A stretch of 64,000 nucleotides of DNA from Ectobius pallidus (lineage: Eukaryota > Arthropoda > Insecta > Blattodea > Ectobiidae): assembly GCA_964059195.1 (NCBI GenBank), contig CAXKWD010000007.1:26051023-26115022 (forward strand), written 5' to 3'. Below are positions 17,501-60,304 of the stretch, in pieces; positions within the stretch are counted from its first letter, which is position 1, and every line of letters starts with the position of its first letter. The position numbers and the translations under genes are program-made. A model generated the notes under the pieces. The model did not search any database and was not told the origin of the DNA. It saw only the letters and a list, made by a program, of their open reading frames with translations.

Positions 17501-20500
17501 CTGTTCCTCTTTTTCCTTTTCCTCTTTTTCCTTTTCCTCTTTTTCCTTTTCCTCTTTTTCCTTTTCCTCTTTTTCCTTTTCCTCTTTTTCCTTTTCCTCT
17601 TTTTCCTTTTCCTCTTTTTCCTTTTCCTCTACTTCCTCTTCCTCTTCTTCCTCTTCCTCTTCTTCCTCTTCCTCTTCTTCCTCTTCTTCCTCTTCCTCTT
17701 CCTCTTCCTCTTCCTCTTTTTCTCTCTTTTTCTTTTTCCTCTTTTTCTTTTTCCTCTTTTTCTTTTTCCTCTTTTTCTTTTTCCTCTTTTTCTTTTTCCT
17801 CTTTTTCTTTTTCCTCTTTTTCTTTTTCCTCTTTTTCTTTTTCCTCTTTTTCTTTTTCCTCTTTTTCTTTTTCCTCTTCCTCTTTTTCCTCTTCCTCTTT
17901 TTCCTCTTCCTCTTTTTCCTCTTCCTCTTTTTCCTCTTCCTCTTTTTCCTCTTCCTCTTTTTCCTCTTCCTCTTTTTCCTCTTCCTCTTTTTCCTCTTCC
18001 TCTTTTTCCTCTTCCTCTTTTTCCTCTTCCTCTTTTTCCTCTTTCTCTTTTTCCTCTTTCTCTTTTTCCTCTTTCTCTTTTTCCTCTTTCTCTTTTTCCT
18101 CTTTCTCTTTTTCCTCTTTCTCTTTTTCCTCTTTCTCTTTTTCCTCTTTCTCTTTTTCCTCTTTCTCTTTTTCCTCTTTCTCTTTTTCCTCTTTCTCTTT
18201 TTCCTCTTTCTCTTTTTCCTCTTTCTCTTTTTCCTCTTTCTCTTTTTCCTCTTTCTCTTTTTCCTCTTTCTCTTTTTCCTCTTTCTCTTTTTCCTCTTTC
18301 TCTTTTTCCTCTTTCTCTTTTTCCTCTTTCTCTTTTTCCTCTTTCTCTTTTTCCTCTTTCTCTTTTTCCTCTTTCTCTTTTTCCTCTTTCTCTTTTTCCT
18401 CTTTCTCTTTTTCCTCTTCCTCTTTTTCCTCTTCCTCTTTTTCCTCTTCCTCTTTTTCCTCTTCCTCTTTTTCCTCTTCCTCTTTTTCCTCTTCCTCTTT
18501 TTCCTCTTCCTCTTTTTCCTCTTCCTCTTTTTCCTCTTCCTCTTTTTCCTCTTCCTCTTTTTCCTCTTCCTCTTTTTCCTCTTCCTCTTTTTCCTGTTCC
18601 TCCTCCTCTTTTTCCTCTTCCTCTTCTTCCTCTTCCTCCTCTTCCTCTTCCTCTTTTTCCTCTTTCTCCTCTTCCTTCTCCTCTTCCTCTTCGTCCTCTT
18701 CTTTCTTTTCCTCTTCATCCTCTTCTTCCTCTTCCTCTTCATCCTCTTTTTCCTCTTCCTCTTCATCCTCATTCTCTTCCTCCTCTCTCTTCCTCCTCTC
18801 TCTTCCTCCTCTTCCACCTCCTCTTCCTCTTCCTCCTTTTCCTCTTCCTCTTCTTCCTCTTCCTAAACTCATCTTCCTCCTCTTTCTCTTCTTCCTCCTC
18901 TTCCTCCTCTTCCCGTTTTTCCTCTTCCTCTTCCTCCTCTTCATCTTCCTCCTCTTCCTCTTCCTTTTCCTCCTCTTCCTCTTCCTCCTCCTCCTCTTCC
19001 TCTTCTTGTTCCTCTTCTTCTTCTTCTTCTCCTTCTTCTTCTTCTTCTCCGTCTTCTCCTTTTTCTCCTCCATCTTCTTCTTCTTCTTCTTCTTAAACTT
19101 GAATTGAGGGGTTATGTACATGAGCCTTTACTGTCTGACTGCTTTCTTCCAGGCCACCACGTAGACCATGCATTTTCGGCACATCACAAAAATGTCTCTG
19201 TAGATGATAGAAGGTATATTGTTCACTAGGGTGCATCAAATGTCCATTTTCATTTATTATCTTTTTAAATCAGCTAACCATCCATATAAGTGTAAACAAA
19301 TCTCAGGTCGATTGGTAAATTTCTTCAGGTGACACCAACAGCTTTAAGTTTAAAAAATTTCATAAAAAAAATGTTAAATGTTTGCCTTTATGAAATCAGT
19401 TTACCCTTAGTGGTATTTGATACAAAGGTCCACATTTTACTTAAAAAAAATTCAGCCTGATTGGTCAAGTCCTTCAGGTGCCACCAGTGTCTTAAAATTT
19501 GTATAAAAACTATAAAAAATCGTTTTTGTTGTTTCATAAAAATAAGTTTTAGTGTTTCTGTATATTGCGAATGGTTAATTAAGTAAAAAACCAATCTATT
19601 GCATCTGCAGCTTTTTGCTAATTTTTAAACAGAGATGTTGGAAATACCACATGCCCCCTAATCCTGCCGTCTGCCTATGGTAGATGACGCAGCGGTCAGG
19701 TGGTAGTTCTTGTCCCTTCTGGGATGTTAGCGCCATGGAGTTAATTAATTACCTAAAACCCACAATGGGGAGTTGGCTGTAATTCGAGTTCCTTGCACAT
19801 ACTAATGATGTTAGTGGTGCAGGTTCATGTATTGTTACTCTTTTGCTTTATTGGCATGTTCTCTCTTGATTATAAAATTATTGGGATAAATCAATGTTTC
19901 TCACTGATGATGATGCCTTTTGTCACCAGTTTTAGCATTTTTCTACAGGATGAGTGTAACAGGGTCAAGATGTAATAGTTTCAGCTGCCAGTGGAGCTGT
20001 CTTCACATTTTAGTTTAGCTTCTCCACAAGTGTTTGTCAGTGGTGACACCATCAGCATGCATGTTGACCAATTAATCACTTGAAAATAATTTGCTGCTAT
20101 TAAGTTGATATAGGGAACAACGATGTCACATAGAAGTATGTGATCACCACACGGGGTCTTTTGTCTTGCTTTTAGGACTTTTATATCCTGCAGCCTAGAA
20201 CCTGTACTTTAACATTTTGGTCAATTTGACAGAAGTAGGTTCTTGGGGTAGCCATATCACGCATTTCTACATATTGTGGGATTAATTATTTTTTGGTGTT
20301 CTGCTTCCATGCACAAATATAAATACATAATTTCATCTTGATACAGTTTTCCTTTCATGCAAATAGACATGTTTCTGAAAAGTGTACTCTTAGATTCATG
20401 GAACCTCAAAACGTGTATTAAGGCTGAAAACTTTACATAAAATTTCAAAGTTGGACACAATACTTCTTCTAGTAGTTGAATGTTTATAAATATCCAATTA

Positions 20501-43900: not shown

Positions 43901-46900
43901 AAATACAAGATCAAGTTCTAAAAACTACTAATTTCACCCCTTAATCAATTTCTTGAACAAAAGTACATCTAATGAAGTTTCCAGTTGCTAAGGAGATAGT
44001 GCTCTATTATACGCGGAAAGTATTACTGTGTTAATAGCAGTGTGGTCAAGCCTTTCATTACCCGATGGCAAATTAAAAGATTAAAGGGGTCTAGTTGTTC
44101 TACCGAAACATAAGTGGACAGAATTTTCAAACAGGAATCCATCCAAAGGAGAACTACATAACCGCAGATGACACAGGATTAGTTGGCCCAGCCACACACG
44201 GATCCAAAACTGATAAACACATTGAAACTGGCCTAGTTGCAGTAGAAAACACCATGGAGATTTATACTGAGGCGCGCAGTGCTCGGTATTCCAAACAGAA
44301 CTTCTTGGCATCCAAATGGCAGCAGTAGACTGAATTGAACGCCAACGTAAAGCAAACACATCCCCATCATACGCAATACATGTAGACTCGCAAGCGGCAC
44401 TTTTCGCTATCAAAAACACCAGAACAACACAACAAATTGGAGTTTCCATAAAAAAGAAAGACCGCCTGCGTGGTCTCGTGGTTAGCGTTGCTGGCTACGG
44501 ATCCTTAGGCAAGGGTTCGATCCCCGGTACCTCCTCGGATTTTTCTGAAGGTCTGGAACGGGGTGTACTCAGCTTCGTGATACAAACTGAAGAGCTACTT
44601 GATAGAGAAGTAGCGGCTCCGGTCACGGAAACCACAATTAACGGCCGTCGGTGTCGGCATGCTGACATGCCCCCAAACTTGCCATCTGCCTATGGTAGAT
44701 GACGCAGCGGTCGAGTGGTAAGCCTTGTCCCTTCAGGATGTAGCGCGACGGAGTTTAGTTTTTATCAGAAATAAAATAATTATAATGAAGAAAACTCAAA
44801 TTTCACTGCATTGGGCCAGAGATCATACAGGAATTCGGGGCAACGAAAGAGCCGACTATTTAGCCAAGACAGCAACCAGGTATAGAACCACCATAGATTA
44901 CAGCTCCATCCCATTGTCTCTTGAAACTTCTACTAAAATACTACATAAATATTTGGAATACTACATAAATATTTGGAATGCTACATATATAGGCCTACAC
45001 TCCGAAGCTGCACATCACACCAAACAGTTCATCCCCTCCATCCGCTGTAGACTCCCAGTACCCTTATGGCCCACCTACATACTCACATAATTTCTCACCA
45101 ATCATGGATGTTTCCGTACTTATCTCCACAGAATTAACAAAATACTCTCTCTTTTATGTAAAGTCACCGCAGACAGCTATAAACCGCAGCTATAAATCAG
45201 AGAACGGCCAACCGTTCTAACAAAGCAAACTCTGCTCCAGGTAAGCTACTGAAGTCCCACATCAACACTGTTGACGTCACAAACTTCATCAGCAACATCT
45301 TCCGCACATTTCAAAACTCTTAACATTCATTAAATGAAAATGCCCTGTGATATGCCTTTGGCAAAACACAGGTTATAAAAATCATTTGTAAATATAAAAA
45401 AATCCCTTTAGGCAGGCCTACAGGCTGAGGTAGATTTCAAAGTGCTTTTGGTTTAATTTATTATCGCTGCGCAGCACTCTTCTTTTTTAGCCTTGGCATG
45501 GCAAACCTGCAGTAAAGAGGAAGAGCCTACAATCATTTGTTTTGACAACAAGAATAGGATATAATATTCTGGGAGGCCGTGCGCAAGATCAACAATGAAT
45601 AAAATTAGCAAAGCCGCTAAACAAGACAAAATTATGATATTATAATAATTCTTTTAAGTGTTATTATTTTCAAACATTAAAATCTCGCGTCATATGAGAG
45701 CTATCAAGAAACTATTTATTGAGTTGTAGAGTACTCATCAAGAGCTTTTCAACGATACCCCACAAGACGTGGTTTCAAAAGTTTCGAATTTTCATCCCCC
45801 ACCCCCACCCTCACCCTCACTCGAACCCCCGAATCGTTGGTGTCACTGTGAACTCCGTAGCGAGTACTCTAATTTATTCAAACAAAGTTTCCCTCTATAC
45901 TTCATAGGGGCCGAGATATACATTTTTAAAAATTTCAACCCCCTCCCCCGACCACCCCCTTGGGCCAATTTTGCTCATTAACGAACTTGTCCGAACTATT
46001 GGGCCTAGAAATAACATAATAAAATTTGGTTCAAATATCTTCAAAATTACGGCCGCTATCGTGTAAAGATATATATATATATATTATATATATATATATA
46101 AATATACGAGGGGATGCTGAAAAGTAATGCCTCCAAATTTTTTTCGTCTGTTTGCAGTATAGTAGAGGTTTCGCATGTCCTGCATATTACTCAGTTGTCC
46201 TTGCTGCTGAGCTGACGCAAAGTACAACCCTCTGCCGCTAGAGGGCTAGTAACATGGCGGTCTGTAAAGTGACTATGTCGGTGTGTGAGAAACAGCGTGC
46301 TGTAATCGAGTTTCATAAACCAAAACGCATTCGAAGAACTCGTCCCCACATGGAACACCCTCTCCTTCAGCATGACAATGCCAGACCGCACACGAGCGTT
46401 GCGACGTCTGCAACGATCCGACGTCTTGGATTCACTGTCATCGATCATCCTCCATACAGTCCCGACTTGGCTCCATCCGATTTTCACCTCTTTCCAAAGC
46501 TTAAAGAACACCTTCGCGGTGTCCACTTTACAACTGATGAAGCAGTGCAAGCGGAGTTGAGGCTGTGGTTCAGACAACAAGGTCCAAACTTCTAGTGACG
46601 GGATCCACAAACTGGTCTCTCGTTGGGAGAAATGTGTGCGTCGCCAGGGTGACTATGTTGAGAAATAATTAAGTAGAAATGGAGAATAAAGATGTAGTAT
46701 TGTAATACAGTTTGGTTTATGTCAAAAGCTTTAAGGTGTTCCCGGAAAAAAAATCGGAGGCATTACTTTTCAGCATCCCCTCGTATATATAAATATCACA
46801 ATTTTTTTTTGAACGGGCGGTGGTTTCGTACTTAGGGGAGCATGAAACGTAAAGATATGAAAGAATTTTTCGAAAATCATGACATGGTATCCATTGCAAT

Positions 46901-53552: not shown

Positions 53553-56500
53553 GGCTATTTTGCTTTCAAAATTGAATATACAGGGAAGAACTAAATGTTT
53601 TTCAAATGAACATGTGAGGTCCGAGGTGGCTCCCAAATAGAAAACGGTAAATAACTAGAAATAACCAAAATGGTTCGCAAATCGAACAACTGTGCCGATT
53701 TTTCTAGTGGCTGTCATGTAAAGCATTATTAAGCGAGTGGGTTGGGAAATGTTATTATTTCCGATCCTCGCCGGTGGTTAGCAAGCAATAACTGAAATTT
53801 GGTAACAAGTAAATGTTAGACGCTGCAGCTTTACCTTGGACAGGATGGATAACTACCTTTTCTGCCGCCAAAAAATGTTGAGGACTGCTTCACCAATGAT
53901 GTGATGTCAAAAACACAAATCCACTTTCAACTAGATGATTTCTTTGATTAAGAGTATATTCTTTTTTTAAAATTCAGCTGTGTTTATACTGCTTTTAGCT
54001 ACGAGGGCATATCAGGAGTTCGGGATTAGAGTAGGCCATGGACCTATTGATTGCCAATTCTTTCTATAATTGATGTATTTTATGGATTAAATTTCAACTT
54101 ATATTAATTTAAATGGATATGATATAGGATAATGGGAATTGGTGAGGATGATTCATGGTATGTAAATATCCAATTCGGCATTTGCCTTTACGACTGGGGA
54201 AACTATGAAAAAACTCATGTCAAATTGGCCGGCCACGGGATTTGAACCTGGGACCTTCTGAATGCTAGTCGTTACCATCTCGGCCACCTCGCTCGGTCAT
54301 TATATTCTTGTAAATTGTGTAAGGAGCGATAATGACTTTCCGCCATATGACTACTGGGCTGACGAACAACAAAATACTATGACTCTTTCAGGTCTTAATC
54401 ATTCAATTCATAGACGCGTTGAAAACAATAAAGATAGAAAGTTACTCCAAAATTAGAAACCACCGTAAGCGGAATTTAAAAAAAAAATCAGGATAAATAA
54501 CAGTTTTACAAGAAAAGCTAATAAATTTACATGTGGTACAATTTCGTGACTTGTGTCTTGCTGATTGGTATATGGTTACTTAACGACGGGGATGTACTGC
54601 AACTTAGGCGTGTGACCGTCGCCAGTGTGCCGGAAATTTGTCCCGCAGGAGTCCTTTTACATGCCAGTAAATCTACTAACATGGGCCTTTCACATTTATG
54701 CACACACAAATCTCATTGACCTGGCCCGGGATCGAACCCGGAACCTTGGCACAAAAAGCCAGCGCGATACTAACTGCGCACCCAGGCACTTATGTCTTGC
54801 GTATCTAATGCTACAGGTTTCTGTTCCTAAATAATGCTAGCCTCATCATAAGTGTAATCCTTAAGCTGACGATATAATAATCACAAGATACATAACTAAT
54901 ACCAGAAAATATTTCGGGAACCAGCTTAGACATTTCTCGGGAAACGGATCGGAAACCAACTAGGACTTCGCGACAGTAACTGACCGAGAACCACTTAAGC
55001 TATTTAGAACCACCTCATCCTCACCCAAATATACATATATGCCACATATTTACAGTATAATAATATAATGTTAGTGTAGGATCCGGGATAAATCCGGAGC
55101 GATAGGAATAAAATGTAGGAATAGGATAGAAAATTACAATAAATCTCTGATAGCGGAGGACCTTGAAAGCAAGAGTGGACTATGACGCAGGACGTTGAAG
55201 TCAGGGAACCAAGGAATTATAATTGGACAACAATCTAAACATGTTATTAAACTTTGCACTTTTATTCACACTTGTAAACTACTGGTTAATTAGGAGATGA
55301 AATTTGAATAAGAAATACAGAAACACTTTTAAAACAATGAACTGAAAATGGCGCGGAATGATGTTGCACCACTGGACGAAATTATGTAAAAGTTGTAATT
55401 ACCAATAAATTATATATGAAATTAATGGTAATGAAATTTACTGTTATTTAAATATATTCAAAGATATTGGAACTTGCTTATTCACTTAATGTTAGCTTCG
55501 CGAATGAGCGATGATGTCACCACACTAACACCTTGTAGAAACTTGTAGACGAGATCCAATAAGCATTGAATTAGACAAATGCTTAAATTATAATAAATAA
55601 TTTAGCGGAATAAATAAAACTTATAATGGAAGTTTTATATCAACGATTCCGAGTTATAATACAAAGGGCGCAAGAAGCCTTTGTTAAAACCGCGAAATCA
55701 GAGCAGAGCAGAGTACGTCTTACCCGTGTTTCTGCAGATCTAATACTGACAAAGCCAAGTGACGCTTCCAATCAGCGTCCCTCAAGCAAGCACCTGCCAC
55801 ACACAAGCGCGTGACACAAAGCTGATGAAATGTTGCGCCTAATTTTAGCTGAATCAGCGCAAGAAGGCACAGCGGACGATTTAAATTGGAACTAGTCACT
55901 GTACATATAAAAATGATGGAAAAACACTTAGCTTGCGTTGACAGTTAGAATACAAGTACTTACTTGAAATTCATCCTCTCTTCCAACGCTTTCCACACTT
56001 CTCCAATGAAACCCCCAGTTAATTTGGATACGTTATTTCTTGTTTCAACTACCATAAAGGGTGGAAACTGAAAGAGAATAGTTAGATTATGAGTAAGAGA
56101 AAGACTTTATTATTTTTGTTTTGCTACGTGGCGGTTACACAGAATACAATAGATAAGTGAATTTTTACACTTAGAAATGGTCGGTAAAGAATTTACAAAC
56201 AAATGCAGAAAAGTACGAGGGTTGGAAGTTTAACAGTAGCAACACATCTATAAAATCAATGTAAATTACAGGAAGTTCAAATCGCTTTTGTTGGATGTTG
56301 GTTGGATAGCCAGCGTACTTCAAAGCAAATAGGACCCTTCTATCATTACCAATGCCTTCACAGTAATTGAGCTGGCTCTATCAACCGGTCTAAAATGAAC
56401 TTTGGATCTGACAGAAAACCAACGATTAAAAATAATTAAGTGCCAGAATGGTACTTTATGAGATTATATGGGGGACAGGAAAATGTCTGTCCGTCTGTCT

Positions 56501-59500
56501 GTACATGTGTGTGTACGCGCGAAACTCAAACACGCTTTATCGGATTTTCCTGAAACTTGGTATACGCATTTATAACGTCCATGAAAAGAAGCCTATTGTT
56601 AATGGATCAAATCGGTTGACCCGTACCGGAGTAGTGCCTAATGAACAAGTAACTGAGCTTCGTAACGAGGTCGAAGTACTCGGCCATTAGAATGGTATCT
56701 ATCAGTATTATGAAGTCTATCTGCCGTCTGAAAGTCAAGTTTAAAGCTAAGTAAATAAAAAAAAAAACCTAATGATTAAGTGCAAACGGCAAAGTAATTA
56801 TTATATGACTTCAAACAATTGTCTAGCGTAGAAATCAACTGGACGACATGAAATATATTGGAAAAGAGAGTACTTCCCAAGGCTTGTAAACTACAGAGGT
56901 AGCGTATTCCGGCGAGTTTATAGAACAGGGGGTTGCGGCGAGCAGGCGAGTGTGTGACGTCACCAGATTCCAAATCTCGCAATTCACAGTTTTTACTCAG
57001 TCTAGAAAATCTTACACCGCGTGATTAAACTAGTAACCTTTAAATAACCCTTTGTCGGATTCCTGTGAAATTTATACAGAAATAATCTACACACATCAGC
57101 CCTACTGATGGTTAAAACAGAGCCTTAAAAAAGCGGACACAAATGTTTTTATTTCATTTTATAAACATCACCCGTTACACAAAATTCATGGAGGGAGAAG
57201 CAGATTTCACTATGCGACAATTTTTTGTATTTTTGTGTCCCGAAAAAACTTCAAGCGAGAAAGTTTTAGTGAAATAATTGAATTTTAATACAAATGAAGT
57301 TCCAGCCCCATATTCGAATGGTTTACGAGTAATTGAGTGGTAATTATTCCGGAATGATTTGGCGCTTCGAGCAGGACAGTAGAGAGCATGGTCCCGTTGA
57401 CAAGGCTTTTGTACCTACTGATCTCGGTCGCTTGACCGTAGTCTTTTAGGATAGAGATTACCAATACATATTGTTTTTAATAGTACAATTAGAAAGTGCT
57501 TTAGAATGTGCAAATAACTAAACCATTATGCCGGGCCAGAGATGTGCTGTGGCAGTGTGTAACAGTAATTTCTCAGATTGCAAGAAGCTTGACTGTAACA
57601 TTTCGTTCCACGTCTTTCCAAAAATCAAAGATGTTCGCAAGCAATGGATTGTTGCTTGCCGAAGAAATGATTCTTGGAATCATGATACAAGTCGAGTATG
57701 TTCCTTGCACTTCATGGAGCAGGATTACGAAAGGGATTTCAAAGCTGAACTGCTGAATTTACCAAGGGAAAAACGATTGTTATTAATCATAGGCCTATTT
57801 ACATGGGCTTTTAGGACTACAGAACTTTGTTTGCCTTTATATGAGCAGCTATGTCGGGATGACTAAATAAAAAGGTACCTCCGAAGAATATAATTATTGA
57901 ACATTAATTCTTTAACTGCACTGGAAAGCATATTTTTTTATTGAGGAATGGAAATTAGTCTGCAGCAAGGCAATATTTGGCGTTTCTTCTGAAGAAGATT
58001 GAAGAATTATATTCACAGCTGAAGATTGAAGAATTATTGAAGATTAATATTCACAGCTCTCGGTAGATCACGGAGTAAAGGGTCCATGGATTTAACCAGG
58101 CTAAATTATATTTTATTAAATTTTTGCGACTATTATTCACTTATATTGTTATAGGTATTCAGGTCGGCACTCATTTATAATTTAATGATTTATTAAAAAT
58201 AATTAATTATAAGTATTTAGGCATCACGGACGGCGTCTATTGAAGTCTTCCAAAATAATTTAGTTTCAAAGGGTCAATCTTTCAGTATGGGTACAAGTAG
58301 CCAGTTAATATCCTTTATTATTGAGTCCACGACTAAAATATTTAAGGATTTTTACGTAATTGCTAGTAGGTATATTTTATAGAACAAAAAGACCTCTGTT
58401 CCGTTTCCATAGCTTTAGCGCCTAGAGTAATTACTACTCTATTACTCGTAAACCATTCAAGGTATAAACGTGGTACTTGATGTATAATAAAATTCAAATA
58501 TTTTCCTAAAGCTTACATGCTCGAATCATTTTCTGGTCACAGAAATACAAAAAATTTTCGCATAGTCAAATATGCTTCTTCCTGAACATTTCACGGTCGT
58601 CACAACTGAATAGTATAATTACCACTCAATTACTCGTAAACCATTCGAGGTATAGGGCTGGAACTTCATTTGTATTAAAATTCAATTATTTCACTAAAAC
58701 TTTCTCGCTTGAAGTTTTTTCGGGACACAAAAATACAAAAAATTGTCGCATAGTGAAATTTGCTTCTCCCTCCATGAATTTTGTGTAACGGGTGATGTTT
58801 ATAAAATAAAATAAAAACATTTGTGTCCGCTTTTTTAAGGCTCTGTTTTAACCGTCAGTAGGGCTGATGTGTGTAGATTATTTCTGTACAAATTTCACAG
58901 GAATCCGACCAAGGGTTGATTAAAGGTTACGAGTTTAATCACGCGATGTAAGATTTTCTAGACTGAGCAAAAACTGGGAATTGCGAGATTTGGAATCTGG
59001 TGACATCACGCACTCAAGTGCTGCGATTGGTATATCCCGGAATACGCAACCTGTATAGTTTACTGATCTTGAGTACTTCCAGGTTGTTGTGACGCTGGTT
59101 GAAGTTCATAAGAGTTACACACTACCGAATTACGTACATCCGCATAGACCGGGAAGATGTAGGAATTATGAGCTTAAATGCTTTATGTATTACCAGGCCC
59201 GACGAGAGGGAGGGGCAGCCGGGGCCCGGGCTCAAAATGGGGCCCGGCCGACCAGGTTTTATTTTTTACTTTCTAAATTTACTGTAAAATAAAATTGGTT
59301 AAAAGCCAATAAACAGCTTAAGTTTTGTTTTATGTGTTTATTTTATCTGCATTGTCCTGTCATATAATGGTGACACGGAATTAATCAGTTAATCTGAAAC
59401 GGATTAATCTTGAAGAAAAATGGCTATTTTTGAAAAGTAGAAGCAGAAATCCTTTTGGACTCAACAGTAGGCCTCACTAACGTTCGGCAACTAAAATCAT

Positions 59501-60304
59501 AATTTTCAAAAGATTAAACTGGTACACACAGATAAAATTGTTCCTAATTAGAACATTTTAATGTATTTTTCCGTTCCGTGCCCGGCATCAATTTGGTCCA
59601 AAATCAATAGGCTTCGTTCCATATAAATGATTATAAAATGGTGTACTATAAATGGTGTACTAAGTTTTATGAAAATCCGATAAAGCGTAGGCCTATTTGA
59701 GTTATCGCGCTTACAGACACACGGACAGACAAACAGTCTGACGGACAGATATTTTCTTGTCTACCAAACAATCTCATAAAGTACCGGTACCATTCTGGCA
59801 CCACTTAATAATTATGTAATATCATTACATAATCTTTTTGTTGCATACATTATAAAGGGCGAGTTGGGCAGAGTATTTAATATTTGACGGGGGCCCGGGA
59901 AAATTTGTCCCTGGGGCCCTTGCTTTCTTTCCACGGCCCTGTGTATTACTAGATGTAATGTTCACAAAAGTTTTGCATTTTTGTAGAATGAGCGAAAAAA
60001 ATCTTACATGGTAGGAGGCAGCCCTAAGAGTGATTCCATGCAAAGAATTTCTTCGTTCATGGAGTTCCTGTGTGGTCCAGGAAAGTCCCTCTGAGCTGGA
60101 CCATGATCCTACTCTCCTCGTAATCAGTGGCAACTCATACGACACTCGGTACACTTCTTCCAGCACCACTTGATACATATTTTGATATCGTGCCACTACC
60201 ACGAAACTGCTGAATGGTACGTCCACATTCATAAAAGCTTCATTTGCTGATATTTCGAGAAAAATAAGCCACAATCCTCTCGACAAAAATGATGTTCTCG
60301 TTAG
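5294..60304 (-). CDS. Ionotropic receptor gene, 7 exons, 5' end missing
   Basis: An insect ionotropic receptor, a ligand-gated cation channel of the iGluR superfamily normally located in chemosensory dendrites. Exons (minus strand) are 60304-60008, 56067-55964, 52638-52468, 49315-49071, 32198-31981, 24688-24426 and 5573-5294. All six junctions have AG/GT splice sites and keep phase, giving 525 residues plus stop. Order: end of the amino-terminal region, S1, M1, pore loop, M3, S2, M4. Of the three iGluR glutamate-contact positions, an Arg (TISSTRAK) and a Thr (ADTTEL) align, but the S2 acidic residue is Pro (KYAYMAP), so glutamate is an unlikely ligand. The style (GITLR, PPFM, GAFCLQG) resembles the IR75 lineage, but I am not sure of the subfamily. 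At least 55 kb long, with introns of about 3.9, 3.3, 3.2, 16.9, 7.3 and 18.9 kb. No stop or frameshift occurs in the exons, so it appears functional. Upstream exons were not found. Confidence 0.9.
5800..6064. mobile_element. MITE with GTTAAGTCCAC inner TIR
   Basis: About 265 bp with imperfect 37-bp TIRs: AATTCCGGGGTGCGTGGGCA then AGAGAGTTAAGTCCAC, against AATTCCAGGGTGCGCGGGCA then GAGAGTTAAGTCCAC. Non-coding. The GTTAAGTCCAC core also ends the TIRs of the element at 12172-12927, suggesting one transposase family served both. Target duplication not resolved. Confidence 0.75.
6290..6500 (-). pseudogene. Mariner/Tc-like transposase C-terminal remnant
   Basis: Minus-strand translation gives DLPPCDFFSWEYLKQKKLC followed by ELKESIRAEIQIIPQEMMCK. 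This is the tail of a DDE transposase family common in insects (pattern PCDFFLWGYLK...LKxxIxxEIxxIP). No full ORF and no termini located. Confidence 0.6.
6640..6990 (-). pseudogene. LINE reverse-transcriptase ORF, C-terminal end
   Basis: Minus strand, about 110 codons: WDTLAEKRKLARLCPLFKAY, GETAWKEIKG, YLSKNDHSYEI, RKQRTDEGKLSF and WNDLPANVLEAFPR. It matches the conserved tail (ARLCALFKAY, RKQRTD, WNxLPAE) of a widespread insect non-LTR retrotransposon family. Reading is open over most of this stretch, with no upstream RT core. Confidence 0.7.
7400..7665. mobile_element. hAT (Charlie-like) MITE, 266 bp
   Basis: Terminal repeats CAGCGTTTCTCAACCT at both ends and a perfect 8-bp duplication GTATATCC at 7392-7399 and 7666-7673. 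The CAGYGTTTCTCAACC terminus is the familiar Charlie-type hAT end. Non-coding. Confidence 0.9.
7674..8030. other. Unassigned, AT-rich
   Basis: No frame, repeat or RNA signature recognised. Confidence 0.5.
8031..9300 (-). pseudogene. Orphan repeat family with Cys-rich tail: C-terminal part
   Basis: Minus strand from about 9295: a KMKLANLLDKDAEVQRT segment, LATLPATEEAARLHAMRAF, then VTKHGLLPIPSTAKQALQEL. After an inserted element it resumes with CKCSKGCQNACGCRKRGMKC and CNCRGVSC. From memory, this is the end of an unnamed high-copy protein family in arthropods and cnidarians whose C-terminus has a CXC-type cysteine motif (CxCxxGCxxxCGCRKxGxxC). There is a break around 9080 and a one-base frameshift at the insertion junction. 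The acceptor-like TTCTTCAG before the first segment suggests an intron. The N-terminal part lies at 15783-16330, on the other side of the Helitron; the central part is absent. Function unknown. Confidence 0.75.
8145..8894. mobile_element. TTAA-targeted element, 750 bp
   Basis: Ends GGGAAGATGGTAGTTATC and, reversed, GGGGAGATGGTAGTTACC (16 of 18 match), each bordered by TTAA (8141-8144 and 8895-8898). TTAA duplication is used by piggyBac and Kolobok superfamilies. The insertion separates two parts of the orphan Cys-tail coding region, which independently confirms both boundaries. No ORF inside. Confidence 0.8.
9402..9471 (-). pseudogene. tRNA-like pseudogene or SINE head
   Basis: Minus strand: GGTAGAGCATCGGC, a 5-bp anticodon stem TCGGC/GCCGA around a 7-nt loop GCGTCAA (central GTC), then TTCAAATCCCGG in T-loop position. 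The acceptor 3' half TTATGAC has no matching 5' half, CAATGGTAGAG is duplicated, and position 33 is not T. I therefore call it a pseudogene or SINE-derived head. It sits at the break between the Helitron helicase end and the orphan gene fragment. Confidence 0.6.
10721..11123 (+). mobile_element. Poly(A) retroposon, 403 bp, 13-bp target duplication
   Basis: The 13-mer AGTCCCACCAGAT occurs perfectly at 10708-10720 and 11124-11136. Between them is a non-coding sequence ending in about 20 A. This is the signature of a LINE-mediated insertion on the plus strand, either a 5'-truncated LINE tail or a SINE. It cuts the Helitron helicase within its P-loop coding region (DASGGTGKT). Confidence 0.9.
12172..12927. 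mobile_element. TA-flanked element, 756 bp, Tc1/mariner-like
   Basis: The TIRs begin TGAGGAGCGT and TGAGGAGTGT and continue to TTCAAAACGCGTTTAGTCCAC-like sequence on both sides (about 33 bp). TA borders at 12170-12171 and 12928-12929. The flanking Helitron frame reads K-Y-I then C-K-Y-V, the motif Helitron Rep proteins carry there, so the insertion point is certain. The interior repeats fragments of the TIR core but has no transposase ORF. Shares GTTAAGTCCAC with the MITE at 5800-6064. Confidence 0.85.
14070..14173. repeat. Exact 52-bp tandem duplication in a Helitron intron
   Basis: Two identical 52-bp units starting ACCAAAAAAATATAAAAACA. They lie inside the proposed intron 13900-14205, so the Rep frame is not affected. 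Confidence 0.9.
15145..15291. repeat. 64-bp inverted repeat, hairpin-forming
   Basis: Left arm from TATAACTAATCAGAGATTGA to TTGGTAAGTG and its reverse complement (about 63 of 64 match) flank a 19-bp spacer. The spacer itself repeats part of the arm (ACTAACACACTATATACTT). It lies in non-coding Helitron sequence and could be a tiny MITE or a local inverted duplication. Confidence 0.85.
15783..16330 (-). pseudogene. Orphan Cys-tail family: N-terminal part
   Basis: Minus-strand translation: YELAPCPPSLFDEQRKSHKS, YYDFFKPTDTPSNIRS, FDGGFLLRRVLWELREKLFS, YVEYVKKYFGAQSVLVFDSY, then LSKDKFFWNEGNKNRFISML ending at the Helitron TC terminus. It matches the same unnamed family as 8031-9300 (VDGGFLLHRVxW, VxFDGY, FLSNxxNKxRFISML). 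One frame change lies about 15850. The middle section expected between the halves (about 200-250 residues) is not in the window, so the Helitron insertion was accompanied or followed by a deletion. Function unknown. Confidence 0.75.
16556..19094. repeat. 2.5 kb polypyrimidine/polypurine tract, 15-bp variant blocks
   Basis: The plus strand is almost only C and T; A and G occur at a handful of positions. The core is arrays of 15-bp variants in blocks: CCTCTTTTTCCTTTT (about 17340-17625), CCTCTTTTTCTTTTT (17715-17875), CCTCTTCCTCTTTTT (17876-18035), CCTCTTTCTCTTTTT (18036-18410), and CCTCTTCCTCTTTTT again (18411-18590). The flanks are irregular CTTCCT. The long E/K-rich or L/F-rich open frames across it are composition artefacts. 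It lies in the last IR intron, so the receptor pre-mRNA would carry the purine strand. Confidence 0.97.
19226..20460 (-). mobile_element. Orphan TIR transposon, copy 1 (one end)
   Basis: Starts AGGGTGCATCAAATGTCCAT. About 130 bp of this end matches, in inverted orientation, the end at 37931, including a TTTCTTCAGGTGACACCAAC-like block. Inside, the minus strand carries a decayed CYTHPVEKC motif near 19950 and a long block (20040-20310) parallel to 36480-36770, both belonging to the second copy's coding region. A SINE fragment sits at 19645-19742. No open frame remains. It probably represents the 3' half of the coding strand plus one TIR. Confidence 0.6.
19645..19742 (+). mobile_element. SINE family 1, 3' fragment
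   Basis: Contains GTCTGCCTATGGTAGATGAC and GCAGCGGTCAGGTGGTAG, matching the 3' part of the full SINE at 44463-44757 (CATCTGCCTATGGTAGATGA). The tRNA-like head is missing. Confidence 0.75.
20793..22900 (+). mobile_element. Jockey-type LINE, 5'-truncated, RT ORF intact
   Basis: A single open frame of about 637 codons (20793-22706) encodes a non-LTR reverse transcriptase. Motifs: KKSPGHDLIPN, SSYRPISLLPTLSKVFEKVI, FLDFKQAFDKVW (about residue 309), SGVPQGSILGPILFN, the catalytic YADD (about residue 396), then VKYLGVHLDRRLTW and a PLITYACPVW thumb. The order fits the Jockey clade, which has no RNase H. The endonuclease half is missing, so this is a 5'-truncated insertion. The 3' UTR ends in 29 A (22872-22900). 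The intact RT frame suggests a recent insertion. No clear target duplication found. Confidence 0.9.
22958..23640. repeat. Repeat R, copy A (mariner-free)
   Basis: Begins ATCCCTTTAGGCAAGCCTAC and shares most of its length with 45402-46938. Its left end carries GGTAGATTTCGAAG and its right end the inverse CTTCGAATCTACC, so it may be a TIR element. At 23500-23530 it has an uninterrupted ATATATTATATATATATAAA run, exactly where copy B holds a mariner. Confidence 0.8.
23641..24425. other. IR intron, unassigned
   Basis: AT-rich; a short open stretch at 24114-24305 matches nothing I recognise and is unlikely to be coding. Confidence 0.5.
24426..24688 (-). CDS. IR exon F: S2 lobe
   Basis: 263 bp, acceptor CCTATTTTCAG, donor GTAAGTGC. 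It encodes DAKKGSVLHRIYKGLI, then FQRICDTKYAYMAP, then CEVSVLPKQYFKASVGIAF and SQYTELFNS. This matches IR S2: a G-K-Y-A-F-like strand, the C-x-L-x-x-L strand, and an S-P-Y-T-x-x-F-N-like helix. The iGluR acidic ligand residue (KYAFLLE) is Pro here. A repeat copy begins only about 25 bp upstream of the acceptor. Confidence 0.88.
24713..24880 (+). repeat. Repeat Q, copy 1 (inverted partner at 29868-30006)
   Basis: Contains CATAACTTCCTCTGCCAAAT and an internal hairpin whose stem is CATTCTCTTCAT/ATGAAGAGAATG. The reverse complement of 29868-30006 carries the same order of blocks, with the hairpin stem conserved. The two copies flank the BEL element in opposite orientation. Class unknown. Confidence 0.7.
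24896..25037 (+). repeat. BEL/Pao element 5' LTR
   Basis: 142 bp starting TGCATATAATTCTTGTTACC and ending TTTCCAATA. It matches 29064-29212 apart from scattered substitutions and a short insertion. The 5-mer CTTTA lies just before it and just after the 3' LTR. A primer-binding-site-like TGGTGACCGTGAC follows directly. Confidence 0.85.
25072..28690 (+). pseudogene. BEL/Pao Gag-Pol, degenerate and internally deleted
   Basis: In order: Gag (25072-25479, acidic and coiled; then DUF1759-like FGKDDMLIKVYIRELLSLVV and VESYVREDLLRVWQQQS to 26046); zinc knuckle CIFCRGNHISSKCC (about 26110); aspartic protease VKAIIDTGSQRSYV (about 26500); RT finger region ADIRRAFLQKSLHKSEKDF and VVFDITCSPFLLGA (27450-27620). 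The frame then jumps to the integrase end, IQWKFNPPSAAWWGGGEA and LDYEEMSTILCDCEALMNSR. The RT catalytic YxDD, RNase H and most of the integrase are therefore deleted. A DUF5641-like REAVRERFRREYLGQLH follows a nested element. Multiple frameshifts and stops: a defective relic of an insect LTR retrotransposon. Confidence 0.85.
27977..28474. mobile_element. TA-flanked MITE nested in BEL, 498 bp
   Basis: TIRs CAGTGAGTCTCAGACAGATT and CAGTGAGTCTCAGGCAGATT, bordered by TA at 27975-27976 and 28475-28476. The CAGTG start is pogo/Tigger-like. The interior is unusually GC-rich for the window and non-coding. It interrupts the BEL integrase tail. Confidence 0.88.
29064..29212 (+). repeat. BEL/Pao element 3' LTR
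   Basis: 149 bp copy of the 5' LTR, preceded by a purine-rich tract (AAAGTGGGAG, about 29038-29048) and followed by CTTTA, the same 5-mer found before the 5' LTR (24891-24895). Confidence 0.85.
29230..29860. repeat. Dispersed repeats of unknown class
   Basis: Contains blocks found elsewhere in the window: CACACATACAGACATGTTTC and GGGGACCTCAAAACAA, close to 20360-20420; and GAATGTGAAGTGAAAAAAGG with AAAGAAAGTTATGTGGGT, close to 975-1030 inside the hAT at 151-1921. Confidence 0.5.
29868..30006 (-). repeat. Repeat Q, copy 2
   Basis: Inverse partner of 24713-24880, with the same hairpin stem (CATTCTCTTCAT and ATGAAGAGAATG). Confidence 0.7.
30298..30330. repeat. (TAATC)n microsatellite
   Basis: About six perfect copies of TCTAA. 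Confidence 0.95.
30820..31396 (+). pseudogene. LINE reverse transcriptase, C-terminal remnant
   Basis: Plus strand: LGIIIDRHLKFDKHINLRTR, YLLTEVIRTVYLALIQ, VIEYGIIDCGGSSTSVLTPL, NIIQKQIIKVCLKKPLEYP, PEFNVMTVEQIYKL, then NYNTRRNKTLPLIESKY. This is the thumb and tail of a non-LTR RT (YLGIxIDxxLxWxxHI, GIxxWGG, QKxIIRxI, TRxxxxL) of CR1/L2-like appearance. It has several stops. A different family from the Jockey copy at 20793. Confidence 0.65.
31690..31775. mobile_element. 86-bp insert with 12-bp target duplication and palindrome
   Basis: TAGTTATATTTT occurs at 31678-31689 and 31776-31787. The right half of the insert is a palindrome with perfect 23-bp arms (31730-31752 and 31754-31776, the last base shared with the duplication) and a 1-base loop; the arm starts ACATTTGAAAATGATGCGAG. 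The left half (ACTCCGGTCGGAACGTTCAC) is unrelated. No family recognised. Confidence 0.75.
31981..32198 (-). CDS. IR exon E: M3 gate helix and start of S2
   Basis: 218 bp, acceptor TTTTCTGTTGTAG, donor GTAAGATG. It opens with the Gly that completes the pore box and runs through YWYSYIIAIVLVSAYSGIL, the M3 gate helix. In M3, AYSGILISF replaces the iGluR SYTANLAAF signature. S2 begins with FGVLADTTELTFF, where a Thr sits at the iGluR ligand-contact position. The exon ends in phase 0. Confidence 0.9.
32329..32467. mobile_element. 139-bp insert with 12-bp target duplication and 44-bp palindrome
   Basis: CATGGTAAAATA lies at 32317-32328 and 32468-32479. The insert ends with a perfect inverted repeat: 44-bp arms 32373-32416 and 32424-32467 around a 7-base loop CTTACAT. 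It has the same architecture as the insert at 31690-31775. It lies about 120 bp upstream of an IR exon. Confidence 0.75.
32480..34180. other. IR intron, little recognised
   Basis: A run of A at 33031-33046 may mark an old retroposon end. Around 33470-33570, minus strand, PIHLEELKDNITREINSIS resembles a mariner/Tc transposase tail but is too short to call firmly. The rest is AT-rich and featureless. Confidence 0.45.
34190..35804. mobile_element. hAT element, decayed, 1.6 kb
   Basis: Ends GAGTGGCATTCC and, reversed, CAGTGGCGTAAC. Both are followed inward by G/C-rich GGGCCTC-type sequence. Flanks ACTATATT (34182-34189) and AATATATT (35805-35812) match at 7 of 8 bases. Around 35040-35140 the plus strand reads IGDQKRKQKKEI, reminiscent of the basic KRK leader of hAT transposases, but no full ORF survives. 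A unit of about 170 bp is tandemly duplicated at 35290-35640. Confidence 0.7.
36200..37931 (-). pseudogene. Orphan TIR transposon, copy 2 (coding part and one TIR)
   Basis: Minus-strand translation fragments: PMSEVVMLSCDGTATYTGQK (about 37320), IEDFLNKTL, CMIHIN and FPYWNLIESIDSKIIRTNTY (37240-37140), LTRNLVKFINPDGKYSKLGL (about 36930), then KNALTADETITCLPLHTRIA, ERIVKLVTKAASLICGKR (about 36400). I recognise an unnamed high-copy arthropod family (PCHTQAVERxVKLVTEAS, DGTAxNTG, LLHxNELP). Many stops. The end at 37931 is the inverse of the one at 19226 (AGGGTGCATCGAATTTCCAC), so the family appears to belong to a TIR transposon. Function is otherwise unknown. Confidence 0.65.
37932..39030. other. 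IR intron, unassigned
   Basis: No coding, tRNA-like or terminal-repeat signal seen. Confidence 0.5.
39034..39415. repeat. Minisatellite with TTAGG-like segments
   Basis: Begins with about 85-bp units (TGTTTTATGAAATGTGAGGA and AAGCTTCTGCATTTAGTTAA), then two larger units of about 150 bp. Each larger unit adds CAGGTTATGTTAGGTTAGGA and a CTGAATAGCGC block. Confidence 0.85.
39416..41740. other. IR intron, unassigned
   Basis: AT-rich. An 76-codon open stretch at 40412-40642 lacks any recognised motif and is probably repeat-derived. Nothing else is supported. Confidence 0.45.
41742..41955 (-). mobile_element. SINE family 2, copy 1
   Basis: tRNA-derived head on the minus strand: A-box region TGGGTGGCGCAGTCTGTATG and B-box GGGTTCTATCCC. 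The body shares TGTGCATAAATGGAACAGGC and a CCGGC...GGCGAC block with 54560-54789. Confidence 0.75.
42314..42950 (+). mobile_element. Non-autonomous Helitron, 637 bp
   Basis: Starts TCTATAATAATAAG and ends with a GC-rich hairpin region GGGCGAAGCCGCGGGGACC followed by TGCTAG, with T as the next host base. These are standard Helitron termini. GTCT repeats and CGAAGCCGGATTTTA occur inside, and no Rep coding. Its 5' sequence resembles but does not equal that of the large Helitron. The base before the TC is G, so the A|T rule is met only on the right. Confidence 0.8.
42951..43690. other. IR intron, unassigned
   Basis: AT-rich. GATCGGGCCCTTTCGGTCCC (about 43310) is a small GC hairpin-like block in otherwise plain sequence. 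Confidence 0.4.
43693..43775. repeat. (ACATA)n with telomere-like CCTAA variants
   Basis: Ten or more ACATA units grade into CACAACCTAACACAACCTAA and CCTAACC. The insect telomere repeat is CCTAA/TTAGG, but this run is short and degenerate. Confidence 0.85.
44095..45330 (+). pseudogene. LINE with RNase H, split by a SINE
   Basis: Plus strand: an RT-like ADDTGLVGPA (about 44165), then an RNase H piece with AIHVDSQAALFAIKNTRTTQ (about 44375-44435). After the SINE comes MKKTQISLHWARDHTGIRGN, ERADYLAKTA (44785-44880). The DSQAAL and H-W-x-x-D/G-H-x-G-x-x-G-N-E-x-A-D pattern is the LINE RNase H (I/R1-type clades). The RT-to-RNase H spacing is too short, indicating an internal deletion. Distinct from the Jockey copy, which lacks RNase H. 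Confidence 0.75.
44463..44757 (+). mobile_element. SINE family 1, full-length copy
   Basis: tRNA-derived head with A-box GTGGTCTCGTGGTTAGCG and B-box GGGTTCGATCCCC. The body contains CCTCGGATTTTTCTGAA, a GAGCTACTTGATAGAGAAGT block and CATCTGCCTATGGTAGATGA. It separates the two parts of a LINE RNase H. Other copies: 50238-50515 (older) and 19645-19742 (3' part). Confidence 0.85.
46105..46785 (+). mobile_element. Mariner element with internal deletion, 681 bp
   Basis: TIRs TACGAGGGGATGCTGAAAAG at both ends, running on to TAATGCCTCC, flanked by TA. Repeat R copy A provides the empty target site. Internal length is about half of a full mariner. Confidence 0.92.
46254..46660 (+). pseudogene. Mariner transposase, N-terminus fused to C-terminal part
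   Basis: An open frame of about 113 codons starts at a mariner-like MSVCEKQRAVIEFH region and jumps directly to HDNARPH, then PPYSPDLAPSDFHLFPKLKE. These hold the second and third catalytic Asp of the D,D34D triad; the first Asp and the helix-turn-helix core are deleted. A stop follows NF, and the tail IHKLVSRWEKCVRRQGDYVE continues in another frame. Not active, but the N-to-C fusion frame is open. Confidence 0.85.
46940..49070. other. IR intron, unassigned
   Basis: Contains AGGTTAGTGACAGTTAGGTT repeats near 47340-47450, of the same style as the minisatellite at 39 kb. Otherwise no supported feature. Confidence 0.45.
49071..49315 (-). CDS. IR exon D: M1 and pore loop
   Basis: 245 bp, phase 2 in and 1 out, acceptor TGTCATTTCCAG, donor GTACGTAT. 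It starts with the YSIFFHVPEK strand that follows S1. A roughly 20-residue hydrophobic helix follows (LWVSVMVALLVLALVLSS, M1), then a polar loop, then the re-entrant pore segment ending FYIFGAFCLQ. The pore lacks the Q/R-site pattern of AMPA receptors, as is normal for IRs. This is the clearest single piece of receptor evidence in the window. Confidence 0.92.
49448..50234. mobile_element. pogo/Tigger-like element, 787 bp
   Basis: Ends CAGTGAACGCCGCTTA and, reversed, CAGTACTCGCCGCTTA, with TA duplications at 49446-49447 and 50235-50236. Subterminal GATACTGTTATCARTCGG blocks occur at both ends. No transposase ORF. Confidence 0.85.
50238..50515 (+). mobile_element. SINE family 1, old copy
   Basis: Abuts the preceding pogo-like element. 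Aligns with 44463-44757: GTCTTGTGTTAGAGCTGCTG head, decayed B-box GGGTTAGATTCTGG, CTCCTCGGATTTTTCTGAAA and a GTTGGCATGTTGACC body. Confidence 0.75.
50762..51040 (+). pseudogene. LINE endonuclease, C-terminal fragment
   Basis: Plus strand: WWRNRFRDGREERLKELTVL, GNPPTFSNRAGVESNIDLTL, GNWWVAENLTLTDSNLMQYI. It matches the end of an R1-type APE endonuclease (RGxxLxxxI, PTFxxxxGxSxIDLTL, VxNWxVxxxxSLSDH). The usual SDH active site is altered to TDS. Isolated, with no RT nearby. Confidence 0.65.
51124..51857. mobile_element. pogo/Tigger-like element, 734 bp
   Basis: Near-perfect TIR CAGTCAACCCTCGATATAA at both ends, with TA at 51122-51123 and 51858-51859. The second-layer repeats (GCCACCCTCGC) also occur at both ends. 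No intact transposase. Confidence 0.9.
52065..52150 (-). mobile_element. Possible old SINE head
   Basis: Minus strand: GAGTTCAAGTCCCGACTCTG resembles a B-box, followed by GGAGATTTATGCAC as in SINE family 2. The A-box is unclear. Confidence 0.4.
52468..52638 (-). CDS. IR exon C: S1 lobe with ligand-site arginine
   Basis: 171 bp between acceptor TATATTTCAG and donor GTATGTGC. It encodes NGSDLLQLIPQNIVDAVVA followed by TTISSTRAKIVGFTIPI. This is the A-D-x-x-I/T-x-x-R-x-x-x-V-D-F-T block of iGluR S1. The Arg aligns with the residue that binds the ligand alpha-carboxylate in iGluRs and acid-sensing IRs. Two potential N-glycosylation sites (NLS, NGS) fit an extracellular location. Confidence 0.88.
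52640..54050. other. IR intron, unassigned, with a poly(A) run
   Basis: A 28-base A run at 53520-53547 may be the tail of a retroposon of unknown extent; no target duplication was found. The rest lacks signals. Confidence 0.5.
54100..54302 (-). mobile_element. SINE family 3
   Basis: tRNA-derived head on the minus strand: GAGCGAGGTGGCCGAGATGG (A-box) and GTCCCAGGTTCAAATCCCGT (B-box), about 60 nt. The body toward 54100 is AT-rich with an uncertain end. Single copy in the window. Confidence 0.65.
54560..54789 (-). mobile_element. SINE family 2, copy 2
   Basis: Minus strand: A-box TGGGTGCGCAGTTAGTATCG and B-box GGGTTCGATCCCG, well preserved. The body follows as in 41742-41955 (GTGTGTGCATAAATGTGAAA, TTTCCGGCACACTGGCGACG). 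Confidence 0.8.
54790..55963. other. IR intron, unassigned
   Basis: No recognised motif; a 62-codon stretch at 55626-55814 lacks domain features. Confidence 0.45.
55964..56067 (-). CDS. IR exon B: start of S1 lobe
   Basis: 104 bp, too short to stand out as an open reading frame. It lies between acceptor TTCTCTTTCAG and donor GTAAGTACTT. It begins FPPFMVVE and ends in a GGFIGEVWKALEERMNF motif, matching the IR S1 pattern of a PPF box followed by an amphipathic helix and an N-F end. It leaves phase 2, which the next exon completes as Lys. Confidence 0.85.
56440..56690. repeat. Outer segment, inverse of 59540-59804
   Basis: Starts GTGCCAGAATGGTA directly after TTAA (56436-56439). The inverse copy ends the same way (GTGGTGCCAGAATGG) against TTAA at 59805-59808. 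Both carry GTCTGTCCGTC-type runs and GCTTTATCGGATTTTC. May be the true ends of the THAP element or a separate repeat. Confidence 0.6.
56868..57347. repeat. Left arm of long inverted repeat around THAP ORF
   Basis: About 480 bp inverse of 58615-59096. The inner 230 bp differ at only about five positions, the next 150 bp at about ten, and the outer part more. Includes AGAGCCTTAAAAAAGCGGAC and AATTGAGTGGTAATTAT at the inner edge. Confidence 0.9.
57528..57866 (+). CDS. Stand-alone THAP zinc-finger protein, 112 aa
   Basis: Encodes a complete N-terminal THAP C2CH zinc finger: C6-x4-C11, HVFP (28-31), W40, C58-x2-H61, inside CAVAVCNSNF and RVCSLHFMEQDY. The spacing fits the C-x2-4-C-x35-50-C-x2-H rule. 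The AVPTIF box that normally closes the domain is not seen. THAP domains bind DNA; in P, Kolobok and related transposases they recognise transposon ends. Here no catalytic domain follows; the frame ends at 112 codons, with an AATAAA over the stop. It lies between inverted arms in an IR intron, on the strand opposite the receptor. Either a truncated transposase or a DNA-binding-only derivative that could repress an active relative. Confidence 0.75.
   Translation: MPGQRCAVAVCNSNFSDCKKLDCNISFHVFPKIKDVRKQWIVACRRNDSWNHDTSRVCSLHFMEQDYERDFKAELLNLPREKRLLLIIGLFTWAFRTTELCLPLYEQLCRDD
57870..58424. other. Spacer between THAP ORF and right arm
   Basis: AT-rich, no frame. GAAGATTGAAGAATTAT is repeated near 57995-58040. 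Confidence 0.5.
58425..58590. repeat. Diverged tandem copy of the right arm's inner end
   Basis: TTACTCGTAAACCATTCAAG and ATACAAAAAATTTTCGCATA parallel 58625-58790 in the same orientation at lower similarity, so the arm end has been duplicated. Confidence 0.8.
58615..59096. repeat. Right arm of long inverted repeat around THAP ORF
   Basis: Reverse complement of 56868-57347. Together they could form a hairpin with a stem of roughly 480 bp and a loop of about 1.27 kb. Confidence 0.9.
59194..59941. mobile_element. hAT-type element, 748 bp
   Basis: Ends CAGGCCCGACGAGAGG and, reversed, CAGGGCCGTGGAAAG, both followed by GGGGCCCGG-type blocks, with a perfect 8-bp duplication TGTATTAC at 59186-59193 and 59942-59949. 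The interior includes 59540-59804, the inverse of 56440-56690. Confidence 0.8.
60008..60304 (-). CDS. IR exon A: end of amino-terminal region
   Basis: 99 codons, phase 0 at both ends. The acceptor is TTTGTTTCAG just above 60304 and the donor is GTAAGATT just below 60008. It encodes a stretch ending in RRNSLHGITLRAASYH, the usual IR lead-in to the S1 ligand-binding lobe (L-x-G-x-x-L-R). The reading frame runs past the donor for some 180 bases into intron, so the donor sets the exon end. Upstream coding sequence is expected because no initiator or signal peptide is seen here. Confidence 0.8.

Follow-up and report, generated by a model that had tools for sequence, protein, structure and literature searches.

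An internally deleted transposon of Ectobius pallidus with foldback-like arms and 9-bp target-site duplications, assigned to the P superfamily by the transposase of its full-length relative

Introduction

For DNA transposons of the P superfamily, target-site duplications of 7–8 bp have been described (PMC4168063, PMC1562414, PMC7776569, PMC10983969). The P element proper duplicates 8 bp and carries 31-bp terminal repeats (PMC7776569), whereas the Ectobius pallidus family reported here duplicates 9 bp, in each of the 21 copies whose two ends could be read, and has inverted arms of about 475 bp. Galileo, a Drosophila member of the P superfamily, resembles it in combining a P-type THAP transposase with long, foldback-like arms that contain internal tandem repeats, and is likewise rich in non-autonomous copies (PMC3688188, PMC3573991, PMC4168063). 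This likeness is drawn from published descriptions of Galileo. With arms of 0.5–1.2 kb described for Galileo, the present family lies at the lower edge of the range and can still be counted as Galileo-like in this respect. In contrast, Galileo duplicates 7 bp (8 bp in three copies of D. willistoni) at GTANTAC or GTATTAC (PMC4168063), and no such consensus was seen among 18 target sites of our family. Two further P-type systems show a similar population structure with different ends. In Anopheles gambiae, a few full P copies are accompanied by non-autonomous relatives sharing their ends, but the P-MITEs have repeats of 27–31 bp and 8-bp duplications (PMC1562414), and in zebrafish, Pdre/THAP9 comprises a single full-length element beside multiple copies with internal deletions, but with 13-bp terminal repeats and 8-bp duplications (PMC7776569, PMC10983969).

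Long composite arms, duplications of 8–10 bp and a mostly non-autonomous population are also described for Tetris and Tm1, both assigned to Mutator (PMC4079207, PMC3169594). Tm1 has a Mutator-type transposase, whereas none is known for Tetris, which was placed in Mutator by its duplication length and by earlier suggestions concerning foldback elements (PMC4079207); the family described here has a P-type transposase. A narrow phrase search, covering few subscription journals, returned no report of a 9-bp duplication with a THAP or P element, nor did a broader search show one among the 20 of 567 papers listed, and prior reports may exist. Of 11 papers listed on P-superfamily and foldback transposons, none, judged by the openings of the abstracts, deals plainly with a long-arm P element outside drosophilids.

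Results

The analyzed window is a stretch of 64,000 nucleotides, in which a first-pass annotation had delimited a single THAP-bearing element at 56440–59804. This region consists of three unrelated things, the core of which is one transposon copy (Table 1). The outer segments had been taken for the element ends, yet the true ends lie further inside: the left border, at 56878, reads CAAGGCTTGTAAACTACAG, and the right border, at 59071, reads GTATAGTTTACTGATCTTG. The element starts with CAAGG and finishes with CTTG, and the outermost eight bases of both ends have CAAG in common and then differ. Its immediate flanks form a direct 9-bp repeat, not TTAA. The long inverted arms noted previously are real: 56886–57347 and 58615–59063 are 91.4% identical over 464 aligned columns, rising to 96.0% in the inner 401 bp. 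The window element contains a further, diverged duplicate of the inner right arm, which its full-length relative L075 (described below) lacks. A search of 56000–60300 against Rfam yielded no family at its cut-off.

Table 1. Coordinates of the transposon copy, its parts and the neighbouring repeats (positions in the window unless a locus is given)
Feature	Position	Strand	Remarks
Whole non-autonomous element	56878..59071	+	2,194 bp, CAAGGCTTGTAAAC...GTTTACTGATCTTG; sharp borders common to copies
Left target-site duplication	56869..56877	.	9 bp, AGTACTTCC
Right target-site duplication	59072..59080	.	9 bp, AGTACTTCC
Left terminal inverted repeat	56878..57350	+	461/473 = 97.5% to L075 left end
Right terminal inverted repeat	58615..59071	+	435/457 = 95.2% to L075 right end
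Additional diverged copy (~80%) of inner part of right arm	58425..58583	+	tandem duplication within arm
Transposase exon 1 remnant	57528..57773	+	THAP residues 1–82, without C-terminal AVPT box
Remainder of 112-aa frame, including stop	57774..57866	+	intron 1 read-through
Internal deletion junction	58271..58273	+	L075 1426 joined to 5797, 2-bp GG overlap
Truncated copies of very common repeat beginning TTAAGTGCCAGAATGG	56436–56642 and about 59591–59808		two separate copies
Separate insertion	59194–59941 (59186–59949 with flanks)		CAGGCCCG...CGGCCCTG; TGTATTAC on both sides
Internal-deletion type, apparently recently multiplied	L073:6491–9027		~53 bp of exon 1 left in L073

The former outer arms are two copies of an unrelated common repeat that is foreign to the element. 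A query spanning 56440–57000 gave 8,243 first-look candidates in the genome, and among the 47 matches listed (40 candidates scored) the window itself was the only one to continue past query position 208. The left and right outer segments are merely 75.6% alike. No match to the inner element was present in seven outer-repeat loci (L002–L008), and, conversely, 18 of the 20 inner-element loci (L039–L058) lacked any match to the outer segments above 60 bp, the remaining two (L043 and L057) each having a single one off the element, near 4.2–4.5 kb of the locus. Longer copies of the outer repeat, such as L003 and L007, end, as judged by eye, in ...CATTCTGGCAC after about 0.5–0.7 kb. The right outer segment sits within a separate insertion, which we take to be hAT-like from its 8-bp flanking repeat. 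The TTAA regarded by the first-pass annotation as the target adjoins other repeats, whereas the element itself bears 9-bp duplications. Elsewhere in the window, positions 16556–19094 are occupied by a long minisatellite of about 170 copies of the 15-bp unit TTCCTCTTTTTCCTC.

The transposon copy belongs to a family for which all copy numbers given here are lower bounds. Querying the genome with 56886–57520 produced 1,468 first-look candidates, and the 40 that were scored, including the window copy, all matched at 95–100%. Twenty of the best copies were taken with their right sides; adding L073, L075 and the copy in the window made 23 copies that were examined for their ends. One end was missing in two of these (L041 and L058); the other 21 were all flanked by exact 9-bp duplications. 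The arms spanned 464–493 aligned columns in each of the 18 copies measured. Related empty sites were found for two copies: the joined flanks of L048 are 98.6% identical to an uninterrupted site that its own locus contains at a distance of 0.5 kb, and those of L073 are 86–89% identical to uninterrupted relatives in L045, at window positions 44618–44760 and in L012. The identical 9-bp flanks and the related empty sites indicate that the insertions were precise.

Ten diverged copies selected by THAP protein matches (L063–L072) contained no P-type transposase, but included a longer form (L065, L066) with 1.3 kb more non-coding 3' sequence. Neither this set nor the 20 fetched copies, which are those closest to the window copy, is a random sample. 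Searching with the longer form led to L073, which represents another deletion type, to L074, whose stretch showed neither the left end nor a transposase, and then to L075, by way of a longer-form match 3.5 kb from a THAP match. L075 measures 6,352 bp, shares its ends with the window copy and is flanked by the 9-bp duplication ATATAGATC. It comprises a THAP exon 1, an intron with GT...AG borders and an exon 2 that opens with AVPTLHL and lies inside an uninterrupted frame of 774 aa. The spliced protein is predicted to have 852 aa from two exons, with the THAP domain split across both; in this model, with its inferred splicing, the THAP match covers profile positions 1–87 of 87 (62.1 bits).

Within the 774-aa frame, five P-type transposase families of Pfam score above their cut-offs: PF12017 (23.5 bits, cut-off 23), PF21787, PF21788, PF21789 (25.9 bits, cut-off 24) and PF12596. 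Together these cover the P-type HTH, the RNase H-like halves, the GTP-binding insertion and the P C-terminal domain. When the frame was compared with the whole of Pfam (E up to 0.01), P-type families were the only ones found, with no MULE match. The frame aligns with the solved Drosophila P transposase (6p5a) at E 5.2e-90 over residues 100–566, and the aspartates of LQFDEIKV and VSDCGGGN and the acidic residues of NQDSLENFF, among which we presume the catalytic ones to lie, align with their 6p5a counterparts. The best database match is a nameless protein, P0002 (52% identity over 97% of the query), and among the named matches insect proteins rank highest, for example P0004 from Photinus pyralis (47% over 96%). 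The sequence of this transposase places the family in the P superfamily, and the full-length copy with a catalytic part that the first-pass annotation had suggested looking for does exist. Among the 58 of 793 candidates scored in the host genome, there was one intact copy of the L075 transposase and one decayed copy on C2, identical in pieces at 82–95%; the remaining matches, which include relatives of 52–53% identity at C1:69814930 and C7:53397628, reached at most 63% over stretches longer than 100 aa, apart from two short segments of 71 and 77% identity. Since a single intact full-length copy was found, the link between family and transposase rests on L075, and as the data come from one assembly, other individuals may carry more intact copies.

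Relative to L075, the window copy aligns to positions 1–1426 and then to 5797–6352, its right part matching the right 556 bp of the full-length element. What is absent is a stretch of 4,370 bp, which includes the whole of exon 2 and, before it, the 3' portion of intron 1. Exon 1 has in addition lost its end, together with the splice donor, to a second and local deletion, and the 112-aa frame consequently consists of 82 THAP residues followed by about 30 residues read from the intron. The THAP match in this frame (57528–57863; Pfam PF05485, 49.6 bits) is limited to profile positions 1–62 of 87. The previously noted THAP protein is therefore present as a frame but not complete, compared with the 1–87 coverage of the spliced L075 model; its sole protein-database relative is a 168-aa fragment, P0001. 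The description of the locus as a non-autonomous DNA transposon that kept only the DNA-binding end of its transposase gene holds.

Four internal deletion structures were seen in the family. On L075 coordinates, the breakpoints are 1426/5797 in the window copy, 1292/5801 in L053 and 718/4789 in L073, and the two ends were read in all three. The fourth structure, 1186/4508, comes from L066, whose ends fall beyond the stretch retrieved. For the L073-type segment, 33 of the 40 listed rows begin at query position 284 and show 99% identity, L073 being the one that was read; on this similarity, the L073 type looks like the youngest deletion type. In another family copy, L067, a fragment resembling a mariner transposase (by eye) is inserted at 1240–1572.

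The condition of the THAP frame was assessed by comparing 40 sampled copies, not a random set, with the exon 1 reference. Upon reading, the frame was open through the four zinc ligands in 15 copies and broken in 23, and two copies were left untranslated. The breaks are deletions or insertions, several of them shared, stops and lost zinc ligands. A 70-bp deletion and a 20-bp insertion are common to subfamilies, which points to multiplication of those subfamilies with broken frames. Across the 40 copies, exon 1 showed 96 distinct nonsynonymous changes (6 stops) and 16 synonymous ones, a ratio of 6.0, with 3.0–4.2 expected in the absence of selection; the excess may come partly from misaligned frames. 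A rough, script-based split gave 31 nonsynonymous and 5 synonymous changes for 12 in-frame copies and 73 and 14, respectively, for the other 28. There is no sign of purifying selection on the THAP frame, and a selected repressor is unsupported.

The host genome also contains other P-type sequences. Family end motifs were not found, at up to 5 substitutions, in four loci selected by PF21787 matches (L059–L062). By eye, none of the 150 PF21787 matches listed lies within 10 kb of a listed THAP match, and L075 was not among the PF21787 matches listed. L059:1–5001 (reverse strand) belongs to another family, of P/THAP9 type, whose open frame spans 882 aa; identical domain scores at dozens of places in the genome suggest that this family may have been active very recently. 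A further P-type family is found at L060:1063–4325, with a 907-aa open frame and the ends CAGGGCGAGTAAAGCATTAA, and the one copy read is flanked by the 7-bp repeat ATAGCAT. A single genome may thus house P-type families that differ in the length of their duplications.

Discussion

We conclude, with a confidence close to certainty, that 56878–59071 is an internally deleted, non-autonomous member of a P-superfamily family whose terminal repeats are long and foldback-like and whose target duplications measure 9 bp, and that L075 is its full-length relative. The 9-bp duplication, longer than the 7–8 bp described for the P superfamily, counts against this reading, as do the 15 of 40 sampled copies still open through the zinc ligands. 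The window copy retained the left arm, part of intron 1 and, in exon 1, the greater part of the THAP domain, and lost exon 2 through the 4.37-kb deletion. In P elements, internal deletions arise by incomplete gap repair, and those of the present family probably formed in the same way. An L075-type transposase made elsewhere would bind the arms and mobilise the short copies in trans. The THAP frame is a passenger whose splice donor was damaged later. There is nothing unusual about the window copy, a dead-end derivative, and the family is apparently served by very few intact genes.

Two other superfamilies come into question. Long arms with duplications of 8–11 bp are the usual signature of Mutator (PMC6446971, PMC3169594, PMC4079207), and the family shows precisely this Mutator/Foldback combination, making a Mutator, Phantom or Foldback element with an acquired THAP exon a serious candidate on the ends. 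It was dropped after L075 was found, as an element with the same ends and a 9-bp duplication shows five matches to P-type families of Pfam and none to MULE at E up to 0.01, and we regard this assignment as extremely improbable. The first-pass annotation had instead proposed Kolobok, from a THAP domain joined to TTAA targeting, with the outer GTGCCAGAATGG segments as bounds. Kolobok transposases do carry THAP domains (PMC6004289), and TTAA adjoins both outer segments here. These segments, however, are an unrelated common repeat, the element's own duplications are 9 bp long and without TTAA, and L075 carries P-type domains in place of a Kolobok DDE transposase. The duplications and the transposase together reject Kolobok, to which we assign virtually no probability.

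For the role of the locus, the alternatives to a deletion derivative carrying a passenger exon concern the frame and the arms. A THAP-only repressor maintained by selection, comparable to the KP protein of Drosophila P elements, would draw on the fact that small P elements can encode repressors (PMC7776569), on the abundance of the THAP exon, with at least 165 matches at E up to 0.001 in the host genome (150 of 3,569 candidates scored), and on the 15 of 40 sampled copies that remain open through the zinc ligands; some copies may indeed make a short protein. The repressor design suggested earlier nevertheless fits poorly with a THAP domain that is cut before its C-terminal box and a frame that ends in an intron, with 23 of 40 copies broken, and with ratios of 96:16 overall and 31:5 among in-frame copies that betray no purifying selection. 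Moreover, L073, from the group of 99% identity, retains hardly any of exon 1. We hence consider a selected repressor highly improbable. The arms, at more than 450 bp and 91% identity, would pair if contained within one transcript and could in this way supply snap-back double-stranded RNA that silences the family. Arms of this length also occur in the full-length L075 and are simply the family's ends, and a silencing source appears very unlikely. We accordingly retain the reading of the window copy as a non-autonomous deletion derivative of a P-type element.

The length of a target duplication mirrors the spacing of the transposase cuts and serves as a criterion for placing elements that lack a gene in a superfamily. 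The family described here adds to the P superfamily a variant that has foldback-like arms and a 9-bp duplication in every readable copy. By combining these features with a P-type transposase, it goes against the rule of thumb by which 9 bp and long arms point to Mutator, and it illustrates that assignment to Mutator by duplication length can mislead. We lean slightly towards a broader view, in which a P-superfamily lineage outside drosophilids evolved Galileo-like long arms together with a 9-bp staggered cut, its non-autonomous copies thus bearing the Mutator/Foldback signature, and in which some families filed under Mutator by duplication and arm length alone may be P elements. The cut sites of the Drosophila P enzyme are 8 bp apart, and the family offers a case for comparison with this enzyme. 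With one intact gene found beside many deleted copies, one type of which is 99% identical, it also lends itself well to studying how a P family comes to be dominated by its non-autonomous copies.
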